A DNA stretch of 64,000 bases from Sulfuricurvum sp. (GTDB taxonomy: Bacteria > Campylobacterota > Campylobacteria > Campylobacterales > Sulfurimonadaceae), in the NCBI RefSeq assembly GCF_028713855.1, contig NZ_JAQTNN010000005.1, forward strand, positions 1-64,000, written 5' to 3'. Position numbers and translations under genes: made by a program. Below, in pieces: positions 38,555 to 45,480 of this stretch (positions are counted from its first letter, which is position 1; every line of letters begins with the position of its first letter). The notes beneath the pieces were generated by a model, which was not told the DNA's origin, made no database searches, and saw only the letters and a list, made by a program, of their open reading frames with translations.

Positions 38555-38848
38555 ATGACATCAAAACTTCATATCCTCTCTTTTCTATCCGATCACAAAG
38601 AGTCACTTAAACAAAATTTCGGTGTAACTCAGATCGGATTATTCGGCAGTTATGCACGTGATGAGGCAAATGAAGAGAGTGATGTCGATATTGCCGTTGA
38701 GATCGAAGCTCCTAACAAATTTAGAAGTTTTTTTGGATTGAAAAATTATCTCGAAACCAATCTTTATCCCAAAATTGATTTGGGGATCGAAAGCACGTTG
38801 AAGCCTATTGCAAAAGAGTTTATTCAAAAAGAGATTATTTATGTCTAA
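38555..38848 (+). CDS. mntA: MntA-type nucleotidyltransferase antitoxin, module 2
   Basis: A 97-residue minimal nucleotidyltransferase with IGLFGSYARDEANEESDVDIAVEI (GSxxxD...SDxD) and the third acidic position in KIDLGIE. MntA of type VII systems AMPylates HepT and neutralises it. The stop overlaps the HepT start by eight bases (ATGTCTAA). A TATAAT lies at about 38501 upstream. The system is in its own transcription unit downstream of rmuC. Confidence 0.9.
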   Translation: MTSKLHILSFLSDHKESLKQNFGVTQIGLFGSYARDEANEESDVDIAVEIEAPNKFRSFFGLKNYLETNLYPKIDLGIESTLKPIAKEFIQKEIIYV

Positions 38849-39176
38849 GCGGGATCATCGTCTTTACGTCGAGGATATATTAGAATCTGTGCGAGCGGTT
38901 GAAAGTTATGTTGAGGGGATCGATTTCGATGCGTTTCTCAATGACCGTAAAACGTACAGCGCGACGATTAGAGAATATATCATTATCGGAGAAGCAATCA
39001 GTGCGATTATCGATCTTTTAGAAGAGCGGTTTCCAGATTATGAATGGCGAATGGTTAAAGATTTTCGTAATTTCATCGTGCATGAGTATTTTGGTGTTGA
39101 TCCGAGGATCGTGTGGGATTTGACGATTCAAGAATTGCCAATATTGAAAGAAAAGATCGAGTTATTGGATCAATAA
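38841..39176 (+). CDS. hepT: HepT-type HEPN (DUF86) ribonuclease toxin
   Basis: A 111-residue all-helical protein. The catalytic RxxxxH is present as RNFIVHEYFGVD, followed by the DUF86 ending IVWDLTIQELPILKEKI; GEAISAIIDLLEERFP precedes it. HepT cleaves RNA (tRNA in studied systems) unless AMPylated by MntA. ATG 38841 overlaps mntA. It is followed by a short gap and convergent pssA. Confidence 0.9.
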   Translation: MSKRDHRLYVEDILESVRAVESYVEGIDFDAFLNDRKTYSATIREYIIIGEAISAIIDLLEERFPDYEWRMVKDFRNFIVHEYFGVDPRIVWDLTIQELPILKEKIELLDQ

Positions 39177-39214: not shown

Positions 39215-39763
39215 TTATAAATGGGGAATCTTCACTTTAGAGTTTAGTAACGCTCCGATGATAATCATCAGGGCGAGTACCCCCATCCATCCGATAAATC
39301 CTGATCCCAACCATACAAGCCATAAAAGAATTGCTCCCAGCGGTGTTGGAACCCCTGTAAAATGTTTGGCTACCTCTCCGACATCGGCGTTGATGTTAAA
39401 TTGGATCAAACGGCGCAAACCGCTAATGACGTAGTAGATCGACGCGATAGAGGTGATGATGAGCGGTAGTCCTGAGAGGTTTGTGTAGACTGATTGGAAG
39501 ATAAAAAAGGTGGGGACGAGGACGAAGCTGAGAAAATCGGCAAACGAGTCGAGCTGAATTCCGAATTCATTGGAAAGGCCGAATTTACGGGCGATTTTAC
39601 CGTCGATAATGTCAAAAGCTCCCCCCATCCATGCGAGTACAACGGCGACCATAAAATGATTTTGGGTAATGAAATAGGTGGCGAGAAGACCGCAGGTGAT
39701 ATTTGCCATTGTTACTAAGTTGGCAAGGTTAAAGTGACTGGTTGAGCGCCATAAGAATTGCAT
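39215..39763 (-). CDS. pssA: CDP-diacylglycerol-serine O-phosphatidyltransferase
   Basis: A 182-residue polytopic enzyme making phosphatidylserine from CDP-diacylglycerol. The CDP-alcohol phosphotransferase signature is complete: GGAFDIIDGKIARKFGLSNE then G and two aspartates in LDSFAD. There are about six membrane helices, and TGVPTPLGA fits the serine-specific branch. It is shorter than most PssA (about 240), which matches this phylum. PgsA cannot be excluded, but the N-terminal NLVTMANITCGL favours PssA. Confidence 0.85.
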   Translation of the reverse strand: MQFLWRSTSHFNLANLVTMANITCGLLATYFITQNHFMVAVVLAWMGGAFDIIDGKIARKFGLSNEFGIQLDSFADFLSFVLVPTFFIFQSVYTNLSGLPLIITSIASIYYVISGLRRLIQFNINADVGEVAKHFTGVPTPLGAILLWLVWLGSGFIGWMGVLALMIIIGALLNSKVKIPHL

Positions 39764-39832
39764 AAAAGTCCTATTATTGTATTATTCAAATTGAAATTAT
39801 AACCAAAGCCGGCAAAATAGGCCTAATTGAAA

Positions 39833-39850
39833 AAGGTTATCATTATTAAG
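39833..39850 (+). promoter_or_regulatory. Possible second Fur half-operator
   Basis: GGTTATCATTATTAAGGA resembles a partial Fur box (TATCATTATTAA core), 12 bases upstream of a better palindrome. Tandem Fur boxes are common in iron-uptake promoters. Confidence 0.35.
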
Positions 39851-39861
39851 GATATTATAAG

Positions 39862-39880
39862 TTGATAATGTTTATCATTC
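39862..39880 (+). promoter_or_regulatory. Probable Fur box of the porin-feoA-feoB operon
   Basis: TGATAATGTTTATCATT (39863-39879) is close to the Fur consensus, with TGATA and TATCA as inverted arms. It lies 29 bases before the porin ATG, so bound Fur would cover or block the promoter. The feoA-feoB genes downstream give the functional context. Confidence 0.65.
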
Positions 39881-39908
39881 TATCTATAGCAATGTGTAAG
39901 GAAGAGAG

Positions 39909-41132
39909 ATGAAGCGTGTTGTCCTAATCAGTTTAGTAGCCGCAGCCGCTTTAAACGCAGTAAGCATCGACGAAGCGTTTAAAAGTGGAAAAGTAAGCGG
40001 ACAGATTCGTACCGCATATGTGAATCAAGACAATGCAATCGATACTGATACCTATGGAACGTCTGTAGGCGGGCGGCTTAAGTACGAGACGGCTACATGG
40101 AATAACGTGACACTCGGTATTGCCGCTTACGTCAGTGAAAAACTTTCGTTTGCCAGTGGAAACGGGGAGAAGTTAAATCCTGATTTCTTTGATACATACG
40201 GAAACTCTTTTGTGTATTTAGGAGAAGCGTATATCGATTACAGCGCGGATGATGTGTCCGTGCGTATCGGTCGGCAAATGGTCGATACCCCTTTTATGGA
40301 AACCGATGATGTTCGGTTTCTTCCTAACAGTTTTGAAGCGGCGATTGTTTCTTACAGCGGTATTGAAAAAACAACTGTGATTGCAGGATATGCACAGCGA
40401 TGGGCAGGATATGATTCTCCAACAGGTCATAATGATAGCTTGAACGAATTTAAAAAATTCGGTGAAAATCATGACAGCAGCGGAGTGTATTTGGTAGGAA
40501 TAACCAATGAAAGTTTCGAGAATATTGGATTGCAGGGATGGCTTTATAAGATCAATCAATATTCTGACATTTTCTATACGGATGCAACATACACAAAGAG
40601 ACTGGGCGAAACCTCCACGGTAGAGTTGAGTGTGCAATATGCCCTTTTCGATGAAGATAAAGATACCCAAGGAAATGAAACAGGGATTGACGGACATATT
40701 TACGGTGCAGGGATAAATGTAAACATAGGAATGATAACACTGGGTACAGCCTATAACCGTACTTCCAATACGAATGGGAAGTTTATTACCAACGGTTTGG
40801 GCGGAGGACCCTATTACACGTCAATGGAAGAGATGACTATTGATGGCTTGGAAGATGCAAAAGCATATCAGGTTAGTGCTGAAATCGATATGACTGATGT
40901 AGGGATCGAAGGGCTGAAATTTGCAACGTTGTACGGTGATTTCAGAGGAAAAAATCAAAATTTGGATGCCAAAGTAAGCGAATTTGACATTGTTGCAGCC
41001 TATACACTAGATGAAAATATATGTGCCGATATGAGTTATGCCAGGGTCAATGATAAAAACAAAAACACTAGTGATACCGGAACAGATGGCGGATATGACC
41101 GCTTTTTGGTGCGTTTAAATTATAGCTTTTAA
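39909..41132 (+). CDS. Outer-membrane porin, OprD-like
   Basis: A 407-residue predicted beta barrel: a cleavable signal (residues 1-18, ALNAVS), about 16 amphipathic strands, and a C-terminal phenylalanine (RLNYSF) as required for BAM recognition. Strands such as KVSGQIRTAYVNQD and YDRFLVRLNYSF fit OprD-like porins of Campylobacterota. It is the first gene after the Fur box and 11 bases before feoA, suggesting a role in letting iron or a chelate through the outer membrane. The substrate is inferred from context. Confidence 0.85.
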   Translation: MKRVVLISLVAAAALNAVSIDEAFKSGKVSGQIRTAYVNQDNAIDTDTYGTSVGGRLKYETATWNNVTLGIAAYVSEKLSFASGNGEKLNPDFFDTYGNSFVYLGEAYIDYSADDVSVRIGRQMVDTPFMETDDVRFLPNSFEAAIVSYSGIEKTTVIAGYAQRWAGYDSPTGHNDSLNEFKKFGENHDSSGVYLVGITNESFENIGLQGWLYKINQYSDIFYTDATYTKRLGETSTVELSVQYALFDEDKDTQGNETGIDGHIYGAGINVNIGMITLGTAYNRTSNTNGKFITNGLGGGPYYTSMEEMTIDGLEDAKAYQVSAEIDMTDVGIEGLKFATLYGDFRGKNQNLDAKVSEFDIVAAYTLDENICADMSYARVNDKNKNTSDTGTDGGYDRFLVRLNYSF

Positions 41133-41143
41133 GAAGGATTTTT

Positions 41144-41383
41144 ATGAATACAATGACCTTACTGAGTGCATGTACCAAAGGCGGGATTGCTACAGTAGTA
41201 AAAATTAATGCCCAAGGACCGCTGAAACAGCGGCTTATTTCATTTGGTCTTATGAAGGGGACAGAAGTTAAAATGCTTGAATGTGCACTCAATAAAAGTA
41301 CCTATGAGATCAAAATCGGGAATATGAATATTGCTCTACGTAAAGAAGAAGCCGAGTTGATTGAGGTGTCCAATGTCCGATAA
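41144..41383 (+). CDS. feoA: Ferrous iron transport protein A
   Basis: A 79-residue SH3-like cytosolic protein that supports FeoB. The family layout is clear: GGIATVVKINAQGPLKQRLISFGLMKGTEVKML, then EIKIGNMNIALRKEEAELIEV. Its last 11 bases overlap feoB. Confidence 0.9.
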   Translation: MNTMTLLSACTKGGIATVVKINAQGPLKQRLISFGLMKGTEVKMLECALNKSTYEIKIGNMNIALRKEEAELIEVSNVR

Positions 41384-43484
41384 AAAAATAAAAGTTGCTC
41401 TCGTAGGACAGCCTAATGTCGGCAAGAGCATGCTCATTAATTCGATCAGTAACGCACGTTTGCATGTCGGAAATTTTACCGGGGTAACCGTCGAGAAAAC
41501 AGAAGTTTTATTTGAATACGGCGGATACCATTTTAGTGTTGTCGATCTGCCTGGAACGTATGCCTTTACCGATTATTCGATTGAAGAGCGGGTAACGCAT
41601 GATTTTTTATGCGATGAGAGCTACGATTTGATTATCAACGTCCTCGATTCGACCAACATGGAAAAAAACCTTCAGCTCACCGCAGAGTTGATGACAATGA
41701 GTAAAAAAATGGTTATTGCTCTTAATATGAGTGATGAAGCGGATCGTGAGGGGATAGAAATCAATGCTCCTTATTTGACACAGCTGCTAGGGATTCCGTG
41801 TGTGCGCGTTTCCGCTGCGGCAAAAATCGGTCTTGATGAACTCATGAAAGCAGTGATCGGTGTGCATGAGGTTGCTTATCAAGAACAAAAACTGATCTTT
41901 AGCGAAGCGGTTGAAGAGGAGATCGTAGTCATTACAGATTATCTGAATCGACACAAATTCAAGGCATCGATTAGTAATCGTAATATTGCGATTAATTTAC
42001 TCCAACAAGAGAAAAAGACTTATCGAACCCTTCATTCCAATCCGATTTGGACTGAACTTCAGCCGATGTTGATCGAAGCGGACCATCACATCTCTCTTCA
42101 TCATGACAGCGATGATATCAAAGAAGTTTTTGCCGAAGAATATCTTGCTTTTAATCGCGGGGTTATCAAGGAAGCGGTGAAAGTAAAGCTTGTGGCGGTA
42201 GAGAAAAAAACAACAACAGAGAAAATCGACTCGGTTTTAATTCATCCGATATTCGGAATACCGATTTTTCTCTTTTTTATGTGGGGATTGTTCCAACTCA
42301 CGTTTAAGATCGGAAGCATTCCGATGGATTGGATTGATGCTTTTTTCGGATGGCTCGGTGGGGCGATCGGTTCAACGATCACGAATAGTGAAATACGTTC
42401 CCTCATTGTAGACGGAGTGATCTCCGGGGTTGGAGCGGTTATCCTTTTCGTCCCTAATATCGTGATTTTATTTGTAGGAATAGCTTTGCTTGAATCGACG
42501 GGGTATATGTCACGTGTTGCATTTTTATTGGATGGTTTTTTCCATAAATTTGGACTTCACGGGCAGTCATTTATCCCGCTTGTATCAGGATTCGGATGTT
42601 CAATTCCGGCGTATATGTCGGCGCGTATTCTGAAAAATGACCGTGATCGGCTTTTAACACTCTTTGTCATCGGATTTATGAGCTGTGGTGCGCGTTTACC
42701 GGTGTATGTTCTCTTTACAGGAGCATTTTTCGGTCCTGAGATGGCAGGAAATGTGTTGTTCGGAATCTATATTCTTGGAGCAATGATTGGTCTTGTTGCG
42801 GCAAAAGTGTTGAAGATGACGGCGTTCAAAGGGATTGACGAACCGTTCGTTATGGAGATGCCAAAATATCGGCTCCCTTCCGTGAAACTGATATGGCATA
42901 CCGTATTGACTAAAACGATGATGTATTTGAAAAAAGCGGGGACGTTTATTGCCGCTGCTTCACTTCTTGTTTGGTTTCTCAGCAGCTATCCGAAAGACAG
43001 TGCTCTTGATGCTATGTTTGGGGCAAAAATCGAAGCATCCTCGTCCGATGATGAGGTAAAAGTGCTCGAAAATCAGCTCGCCGAAGCGCAGTTGGAACAA
43101 AGCTTTTTGGGTCAAATCGGTCATGTGATAGAGCCGGTATTCGCACCTCTTGGATTTGATTGGAAAATGGCGGTTGCGTTGCAGACGGGATTGGCGGCGA
43201 AAGAGGTGGTGGTATCAACTATGGGAGTTCTTTACTCGTTGGGGAGTGATGCGACGGAGGCCGATAACTCTTTAGTCAGTGCTATCCATGATCATATCCC
43301 TTTTGCTTCAGCGGTAGCGTTTATCGTGGTTATTATGACCTATCTGCCGTGTCTGGCGGCATCCGTTGTCTTTACTCGTGAGGCGGGAGGAATTAAATAT
43401 TTCGGATATTTGTTCGCTTTCACAACAATCGTCGCCTATTCGCTGGCATTTATTGCTTATCATTTGACGTTGTGGCTGAGTTAG
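41373..43484 (+). CDS. feoB: Ferrous iron transport protein B
   Basis: A 703-residue inner-membrane Fe(II) transporter. The N-terminal G domain has G1 GQPNVGKSM, G3 VVDLPGTYAF, and NMSDEADR as the G4 position. The helical spacer precedes about ten membrane helices with the two gates SGFGCSIPAYMSARIL and TYLPCLAASVVF; each keeps its conserved cysteine. ATG 41373 lies within feoA. This is the core of Fe(II) uptake under low oxygen, repressed by Fur. Confidence 0.96.
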   Translation: MSDKKIKVALVGQPNVGKSMLINSISNARLHVGNFTGVTVEKTEVLFEYGGYHFSVVDLPGTYAFTDYSIEERVTHDFLCDESYDLIINVLDSTNMEKNLQLTAELMTMSKKMVIALNMSDEADREGIEINAPYLTQLLGIPCVRVSAAAKIGLDELMKAVIGVHEVAYQEQKLIFSEAVEEEIVVITDYLNRHKFKASISNRNIAINLLQQEKKTYRTLHSNPIWTELQPMLIEADHHISLHHDSDDIKEVFAEEYLAFNRGVIKEAVKVKLVAVEKKTTTEKIDSVLIHPIFGIPIFLFFMWGLFQLTFKIGSIPMDWIDAFFGWLGGAIGSTITNSEIRSLIVDGVISGVGAVILFVPNIVILFVGIALLESTGYMSRVAFLLDGFFHKFGLHGQSFIPLVSGFGCSIPAYMSARILKNDRDRLLTLFVIGFMSCGARLPVYVLFTGAFFGPEMAGNVLFGIYILGAMIGLVAAKVLKMTAFKGIDEPFVMEMPKYRLPSVKLIWHTVLTKTMMYLKKAGTFIAAASLLVWFLSSYPKDSALDAMFGAKIEASSSDDEVKVLENQLAEAQLEQSFLGQIGHVIEPVFAPLGFDWKMAVALQTGLAAKEVVVSTMGVLYSLGSDATEADNSLVSAIHDHIPFASAVAFIVVIMTYLPCLAASVVFTREAGGIKYFGYLFAFTTIVAYSLAFIAYHLTLWLS

Positions 43485-43518: not shown

Positions 43519-44181
43519 ATGAGTAAAATATTAATGATAGAAGACGATCTCGAACTGGCCGAGATCCTTACCGAATTTTTAGAACAGTATGAATTTGAAG
43601 TGACGACGGAAGATGATCCGTTTAAAGCTCTCAGTATCCTCAAACTTGAAAAGTTTGATGCAGTGATTTTGGATCTAACCTTGCCGGGGATGGATGGGTT
43701 AGAGGTCTGTGAAGCAATCCGCGCACGTCAAAACATCCCGATCATTATCTCTTCGGCACGCTCCGATGTGACCGATAAGATTAATGCGCTCGAACTCGGT
43801 GCCGATGATTATCTCCCTAAACCTTATGACCCGAGAGAGCTTGTATCCCGTATCCACTCAGTATTGCGCCGATACGATGCGGCTTCGGTTGCCGCTTCCG
43901 AGATTGCATGTGATTTTAAACTCAATGAATCGGCGATGCAGATCAGTTACAAGATGCGTCCTCTCGAACTCACCAATGCTGAGTACGGTATCCTCGCACA
44001 CATGATTAAAAAACAGGGAATGGTCGTCTCTCGAGAGGATTTGATTCACAATGTCAGTGCGATAAACGAAGACTCTTCGAACAAAAGTATTGATGTAATG
44101 ATGGGGCGTATCCGCAACAAGCTTGGGGATAAAGCTCTCATTGAATCGATCCGTGGTATCGGTTATAAGTTATTAAAGTAA
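43519..44181 (+). CDS. OmpR-family response regulator
   Basis: A 220-residue regulator. The receiver has acidic pair EDD at 8-10, phosphoacceptor Asp52 in LDLTLPGMDG, and Lys101 in LPKPYDP. The DNA-binding winged helix includes LTNAEYGILAHMIKKQGMVVSREDL and SIDVMMGRIRNKLGD. The stop directly precedes the kinase ATG. The pair resembles the Campylobacterota ArsRS/CprRS group, which governs acid response or envelope and biofilm traits in relatives. The target genes here are unknown. Confidence 0.92.
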   Translation: MSKILMIEDDLELAEILTEFLEQYEFEVTTEDDPFKALSILKLEKFDAVILDLTLPGMDGLEVCEAIRARQNIPIIISSARSDVTDKINALELGADDYLPKPYDPRELVSRIHSVLRRYDAASVAASEIACDFKLNESAMQISYKMRPLELTNAEYGILAHMIKKQGMVVSREDLIHNVSAINEDSSNKSIDVMMGRIRNKLGDKALIESIRGIGYKLLK

Positions 44182-45480
44182 ATGATCAAAAATAATGCTG
44201 TTTTAGCAACCGTTATGTTTGCCCTCGTCGTTACGGTGACGAGTGTAAGTTACACCTTTTATCAACTCTATGAGACCAATCGAGCCAAGCATATTGATAA
44301 TGTTTTTGGCAAACATGCGCTTATCAGTCAAATCTACCATACCTATCTTCTAAAACAAATTTCTGAACCGATGTTTGAAGCCAATTTGGCACTGTATGAT
44401 TTGGATGATATTACCGGTAAAGAGGAATATGAGGCGATTATCCGTCAAGGCAAGGTGCTCAAAAGTGACGGAACAACGGACCGTGAGATGAGCTCTTTAG
44501 AGTTTTCATACATACATCCAACGGTACAGCCTATTATTATTTCGATGATTGAGTACAAGGATAAGATTTATTTTTGGGCAGAGTCGTCTCATCATACGGT
44601 GTTGCTTGAAGATCATAGTATCCACGCGTATAATCCGATTAATCTATTGTCGGCTTACGGAACGCTGATAACGATTTTGTTGGTCTCATTTGCCCTTATT
44701 ATCCATCGGCTCAGTCCTCTACGCCGCCTTCGCCGTCAAATCGCTCGATTCGGGGAAGGGGATATGGGTGTACGTTTCCGTATTAACGGCAGTGATGAAA
44801 TCGCACTGATCGCCAATGAGCTTGACACTACCCAAAACAAAATTCGTTCTTTGATTGAATCACGCAATCTTTTTTTACGAAACATTATGCACGAACTTAA
44901 AACACCAATTGCCAAGGGGCGTATTGTCGCGACGATGATCGGCGATGAAAAGCAACGGGGACGATTTGAGGGGATATTTGAGCGTTTAGAGTTATTGATC
45001 GGCGAATTTGCTCTTATCGAAGAGATATCATCCGGAAATCAGTATTTGGAGAAAAAAGAGTATCGGCTTGTCGATATCATCGACGGTGCGATTGATTCGG
45101 CGATGGTAGAGTATGATTCGGTGAGCTGTCACGTCGATACGATGATAAAAATAGAAGTTGATTACCGTCTTTTTATGACGGCAGTCAAAAATTTGATTGA
45201 CAATGCGATCAAATATTCCCCCGATAAAAAAATGGAGATTGCGGCGGAGGGGGGAGAAATTCTTTTTATTAATACCGGTCAACCGCTCAAAAAACCACTT
45301 TCGTATTATATTGAGCCTTTTACGAAAGATCATCCGACCAAAGACAGCTTCGGATTGGGGCTTTACATTGTCGATGCGATTTTAAAAGAGCACGGCTACG
45401 TGTTAGCGTATGAGCGGCGAGAGAATCGTAACTGCTTTATATTTGTCCCTGAAAAACCCTCCAAAAGGAACCATAAATGA
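44182..45480 (+). CDS. Membrane sensor histidine kinase
   Basis: A 432-residue kinase: membrane helices at about 8-28 and 158-178, a periplasmic domain of 130 residues between them, and a HAMP region (RLSPLRRLRRQIARFGEGDMG). The phosphoacceptor His237 is in NIMHELKTPIAKGRI, the N box is NLIDNAIKYS, and GLGLYIVDAIL closes the ATPase. The HELKTPIAKGRI form is that of ArsS/CprS-like kinases. The ATPase lid is short (INTGQPLKKPL). Paired with the regulator upstream; overlaps surE by four bases. Confidence 0.92.
   Translation: MIKNNAVLATVMFALVVTVTSVSYTFYQLYETNRAKHIDNVFGKHALISQIYHTYLLKQISEPMFEANLALYDLDDITGKEEYEAIIRQGKVLKSDGTTDREMSSLEFSYIHPTVQPIIISMIEYKDKIYFWAESSHHTVLLEDHSIHAYNPINLLSAYGTLITILLVSFALIIHRLSPLRRLRRQIARFGEGDMGVRFRINGSDEIALIANELDTTQNKIRSLIESRNLFLRNIMHELKTPIAKGRIVATMIGDEKQRGRFEGIFERLELLIGEFALIEEISSGNQYLEKKEYRLVDIIDGAIDSAMVEYDSVSCHVDTMIKIEVDYRLFMTAVKNLIDNAIKYSPDKKMEIAAEGGEILFINTGQPLKKPLSYYIEPFTKDHPTKDSFGLGLYIVDAILKEHGYVLAYERRENRNCFIFVPEKPSKRNHK

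Follow-up and report, generated by a model that had tools for sequence, protein, structure and literature searches.

Passage of ferrous iron, Fe(II), across the outer membrane is usually ascribed to general porins. Here we describe a locus in a 64-kb stretch of Sulfuricurvum sp. DNA (contig NZ_JAQTNN010000005.1, positions 1 to 64,000; hereafter the window) in which a gene for an OprD-type porin stands directly before the ferrous iron uptake genes feoA and feoB. The concept of a porin tied to feo genes is already published, for OprB-family porins, and the window holds an OprD-type variant of it. The feoPABC cluster of Acidithiobacillus ferrooxidans and A. thiooxidans (2008) includes the OprB-family porin FeoP, which was proposed as a dedicated entry gene, and the A. 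ferrooxidans Fur box upstream of feoB is described as experimentally validated (PMC2631029). In Geobacter sulfurreducens (2004), a predicted FUR box accompanies a porin-feoA-feoA-feoB2 operon, and the authors suggest that this operon takes part in transporting ferrous iron (PMC545781). In Escherichia coli, Fur is supplied with Fe(II) by the general porin OmpC acting together with FeoB (PMC7315122), so porins can be of consequence for the supply of Fe(II).

The window locus resembles feoPABC in having a porin directly before Feo genes behind a Fur box (predicted here), and differs from it in the family of the porin (OprD, PF03573, as opposed to OprB), in having a response regulator after feoB where the Acidithiobacillus cluster has feoC, and in its host, a member of the Campylobacterota. 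With the G. sulfurreducens operon it shares the order of predicted FUR box, porin and feo genes; that operon, known from the single genome in the study, has an OprB-family porin, two copies of feoA and a different FUR consensus, WTGAAAATNATTTTCAW (PMC545781). The E. coli system is alike in that, on the reading proposed here, a porin and FeoB are joined in Fe(II) entry, but its OmpC and FeoABC are encoded at separate loci and coupled through EnvZ/OmpR, with no shared operon (PMC7315122). We found no published description of an OprD-type porin-feo arrangement in our searches of the open-access literature, and the available portions of PMC10066037, PMC10696704 and PMC13186404 do not describe one.

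We consider it probable that porin, feoA and feoB form one transcription unit, repressed by Fur, for the uptake of Fe(II) across both membranes. Comparison across relatives gives good support to one part of this model, a single Fur-type operator serving a single porin-feoA-feoB unit, and Fe(II) entry through the predicted porin is plausible.

Gene order and its frequency in Sulfurimonadaceae

The porin gene (39909-41132, + strand) encodes 407 amino acids and is assigned to the OprD/Occ family by PF03573 (69.1 bits against a curated cut-off of 25; E 5e-19). After a gap of exactly 11 bases (41133-41143), it is followed on the same strand by feoA (41144-41383; PF04023, 66 bits against a cut-off of 23) and by a full-length feoB of 703 amino acids counted from its ATG (41373-43484; TIGR00437, 608.9 bits against a cut-off of 315.65), the start of which overlaps the end of feoA by 11 bases. 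The coordinates and the family match agree with an earlier note on this DNA, which had reported an OprD-like porin of this length followed after 11 bases by feoA-feoB.

We examined the arrangement in a family sample of 121 genomes, which yielded 115 FeoB places in 111 genomes (10 genomes gave no full-length FeoB place, including G113 and G092, where FeoB is split or cut). At 67 of the 115 places (referred to below as linked) the 6 kb upstream hold an OprD-type porin in the same orientation, and porin-before-feo is the commonest state in the family Sulfurimonadaceae. The statement of the earlier note that Feo operons normally lack a porin does not hold in this family, and the Geobacter and Acidithiobacillus precedents had been published. 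At the remaining 48 places no full porin was found in the fetched stretch, some of these stretches ending at contig ends. The porin ends at most 234 bases from feoA at 65 of the 67 linked places (the other two gaps are 2481 and 3474 bases), and in the window's genus 20 of 21 linked places have a gap of less than 40 bases.

A conserved Fur-type operator upstream of the porin

The palindrome noticed earlier before the porin is present at 39863-39877 (+ strand): the sequence TGATAATGTTTATCA, 31 bases before the porin, agrees with the consensus TGATAATNATTATCA at 13 of 14 positions. An exact match to TGATAATNNTTATCA occurs only here, both in the window and in the 2.81-Mb genome. Scans of the window at looser mismatch limits gave six matches against 3.26 and 5.99 expected, which is not significant, and the case for an operator therefore rests on conservation. 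Each upstream region was scored over the 14 positions of TGATAATNATTATCA, and a box was counted if a score of at least 12 was reached in the 250 bases that precede the porin (outside the window these distances are approximate, because the start codons of the porins were set by a script); three linked loci with too little upstream sequence were left out of the count. A box precedes the porin in 52 of the 64 testable linked loci, as compared with a mean of 0.41 loci, and at most 2, in 100 dinucleotide shuffles, and with 0 of 64 for a control stretch inside the porin. Among 140 permuted half-site palindromes, TGATAAT ranks first with its 52 loci, followed by TAATGAT with 21 (the median is 0); the TAATGAT score can be read as the classical overlapping box in a shifted register. 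A chance palindrome was ruled out on the basis of the single exact occurrence in window and genome together with conservation far above the shuffles. The conserved upstream Fur-type operator by which we judged membership in the Fur regulon is found (52/64), and Fur probably binds there.

A second, weaker site TGAAAAAGGTTATCA lies about 35 bases further upstream (39828-39842, + strand; 11 of 14 consensus positions by manual count), in the conserved block TTGAAAAAGGTTATCATTATTAAG, and is common in the window's genus; of 19 testable loci of the genus, 11 have TTATCATTATTAAG exactly and 14 have it with up to two mismatches. The earlier note had suspected a second half-site here; a second site does exist, as a weaker site of full length. 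A probable -10 element, TATAAG (39856-39861, + strand), was assigned from its position between the two sites, and a TATAAG or TGTAAG-like sequence occupies this place in most same-genus alignments. With the -10 element so placed, the transcription start would fall inside the main palindrome.

The porin-feoA junction

A terminator or an independent promoter between porin and feoA had been named in the earlier note as grounds for rejecting a joint unit, and neither was found. We looked for a terminator-like site in the 11-base gap and detected none; the nearest is a hairpin of five pairs within the 3' end of the porin (41088-41103), and the fold of the stretch around it is no better than that of shuffled sequences (z -0.80). 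A search for promoter-like sites on the + strand from 39857 to feoA reported none.

Boxes at the junction vary with the width of the gap. Where no porin is linked, a box lies within 300 bases upstream of feoA in 28 of 43 testable loci, and where porin and feoA are 40 to 300 bases apart, a second box lies inside the gap in 25 of 27. Where the gap is less than 40 bases, as in the window, a junction box is present in 0 of 38 loci; so short a gap can scarcely accommodate a box, and the informative point is that tight pairs manage without a second operator. The one-unit model, in which the first operator serves both members of a tight pair, predicts this difference, and the comparison supports the model without proving cotranscription.

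Rearranged and distant relatives

Relatives were compared at 80 named loci and in further fetched stretches, including a survey of the class in which 40 of the listed FeoB places were fetched. The box shifts with the gene order. In Sulfurovaceae (L267 and L279) the order is feoB-feoA-porin and the boxes stand before feoB. Elsewhere, the porin follows a FUR-family gene and a ferritin (L298), lies directly after a FUR-family gene (L276), or stands behind two boxes and before a TonB receptor, with rubrerythrin opposite (L221, genome G100). These five loci are rearranged and yet remain beside iron genes, with boxes present, which indicates that the association of porin and iron has been kept. In three members of a further family of the order (G147, G168 and G152), a more distant porin precedes feoA-feoB, with a strong box in two of the three.

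Two further configurations were seen among the relatives. At L271:3865-6543 a tandem pair of OprD-type porins precedes feoA, and at three gammaproteobacterial loci (L256:2620, L257:1495 and L260:3911) boxes scoring 12 to 14 of 14 stand just before a relative of the porin, with no feo genes within the stretch examined.

Family and predicted fold of the porin

PF03573 is the only Pfam match of the porin at E values up to 1e-3; the OprB-family model PF04966 is not matched, and the porin scores below the cut-offs of the NCBIfam models for Opr family porins (89.5 of 100 bits for NF033922 and 97.5 of 150 bits for NF033923). An AlphaFold2 model, computed from an alignment of 64 linked porins (three that were cut or broken were omitted), has a mean pLDDT of 91 and the 18 strands of an Occ-type barrel. 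Its best solved neighbors by Foldseek and VIA are Occ porins (a BenF-like porin, OpdK, OpdG and OpdQ), with VIA Z scores of about 34 to 40 over about 330 to 370 residues; the major outer membrane porin (MOMP) of Campylobacter jejuni ranks after them, at a Z of about 31. The window porin thus has its family and 18-strand fold in common with the Pseudomonas and Acinetobacter porins OpdK (2qtk), OpdQ (3t24) and OccAB1 (5dl5), and differs from this group in sequence (12 to 18 percent identity) and in that several solved members are named for small organic substrates; in the literature covered, no Feo linkage was found for the solved Occ porins. The predicted fold is that of an OprD porin, and such a fold does not give the substrate with certainty. 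The Feo-linked porins, which alone were evaluated in this respect, are acidic (median net charge -27), which fits passage of a cation. Counted by regular expression, a loop motif and a GGGP motif failed to tell the Feo-linked porins from the rest, and they were not used as a mark of iron linkage.

In the mechanism that we propose, iron-loaded Fur would, when iron is plentiful, block transcription by sitting on the palindrome where the message starts, and would probably occupy the weaker upstream site as well. When iron is scarce, a single message would yield the OprD/Occ-type pore and the FeoAB importer; the pore would admit free or loosely complexed Fe(II) to the periplasm, and FeoAB would carry it to the cytoplasm.

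Porin copies at other loci

A quick tree of 114 porins (with 25 open forks and some long branches) was labeled by iron linkage, the 'feo' label also taking in three fur-linked or Fur-box porins. The label requires 12 changes on the tree as compared with a mean of 33.4 for shuffled labels; Feo linkage is clustered across the tree overall, yet does not define a single iron-specific clade. Such a clade within Sulfuricurvum was considered and is unsupported, linked and unlinked copies being interleaved. Of 13 unlinked-porin loci (L212, L215-L223 and L225-L227), 11 have no box scoring at least 12 in the stretch examined; those with one are L221 and L227.

Several of these copies have neighborhoods of interest in their own right. 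At L215:1296-4119 (G070 C121), cbiM of a cobalt/nickel energy-coupling factor (ECF) transporter (PF01891) is immediately preceded by a Sulfuricurvum porin of the clade discussed here, without a Fur-type box; this is possibly a second pairing of a porin with a metal importer. Porin paralogues also occur among PAS-like and chemotaxis-like genes (L219:1518-4021, L218:2023-3207, L225:1488-4005 and L226:2539-3738), CheD being confirmed at L219. At L224:2510-4869 (G051), genes for ApbE, for a 182-amino-acid protein of no assigned family and for a DUF6662 protein, all on the opposite strand, separate the porin from feoA.

Counterevidence and alternative explanations

Several observations weigh against the model of a Fur-controlled unit for Fe(II) uptake. 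With respect to the operator, no box reaches the 12-of-14 threshold in 12 of the 64 linked loci. All that is left of the porin in two genomes of the same genus (G078 and G074; L116 and L129) is a 3' scar, located less than about 230 bases ahead of feoA, and the 3-kb stretches of both hold no box scoring at least 11 of 14. In G051 the porin has no clear box and lies 2.5 kb from feoA, which has boxes of its own. The conserved box, in addition, does not point to one FUR-family protein as the one that binds. The genome encodes two, one closest to Fur models and one PerR-like, and Fur and PerR operators are alike; the second protein might therefore read the box, so that the unit would respond to peroxide or manganese. 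We regard this as very improbable, given that the half-site TGATAAT agrees with the classical Fur consensus (that of E. coli is quoted in PMC545781) and that in relatives the box stands by feoAB and by ferritin-linked porins.

With respect to the pore, Sulfuricurvum porins of the same clade adjoin genes for CbiM, chemotaxis (CheD), CusF and solute binding (SBP_bac_3), and on the tree the CbiM-, CheD- and SBP_bac_3-linked porins of this genus are interleaved with the Feo-linked ones; moreover, among the structural neighbors of the model are Occ porins whose names refer to carboxylates or amino acids as substrates. All of this would be expected of a pore that is unselective, or that serves another small solute, and is raised under iron limitation to make the outer membrane more permeable overall, its place before feoAB reflecting shared regulation and no iron-specific channel. 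We consider this explanation unlikely, if worth serious attention, because Feo linkage and Fur-type boxes survive rearrangements that land the porin by iron genes. The carboxylate names would also suit a pore that passes iron complexed by citrate and similar small organic acids, or by other weak chelates, in place of bare Fe(II), with release in the periplasm feeding FeoB. The neighborhood and regulation are equally compatible with such a route, but the unit contains no gene for a periplasmic binding protein or a reductase, and we judge the route improbable.

As regards the Fur-controlled porin-feoAB unit put forward in the earlier note, one operator for one unit is thus backed by the comparison (52/64 boxes, 0/38 as against 25/27 at the junction, and the rearranged relatives), whereas an iron-selective pore cannot be claimed, because porins of the same clade also stand beside non-iron systems. 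We infer Fe(II) to be the relevant solute.

Neighboring genes

Upstream of the operator region, a gene for a CDP-alcohol phosphatidyltransferase is divergent (39215-39763, - strand). Downstream of feoB, the next gene encodes a response regulator, followed by an ArsS-family histidine kinase (43519-45477 for the two). Further upstream, at 38555-39176, two small open reading frames (97 and 122 amino acids) resemble, by eye only, an MNT/HEPN nucleotidyltransferase pair.

Implications

A wider reading, which we offer tentatively and hold to be rather doubtful, is that the Campylobacterota contain a radiation of OprD-type porins joined singly to inner membrane metal importers (to FeoAB many times and to CbiM at least once) and co-regulated with them. 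These would form envelope routes that are independent of TonB and dedicated to metals, and the porin would shift between iron loci while keeping its Fur-type operator.

The states found side by side in this family (no porin, a porin with two operators, a porin behind one operator, and a decayed porin) form a large natural comparison, which suggests that selection has favored a porin linked with Feo. The locus is also a tractable case for the question of whether ferrous iron can have a pore of its own, and the model, if correct, would justify annotating the 'Opr family porins' of this kind in Sulfurimonadaceae within the iron regulon.

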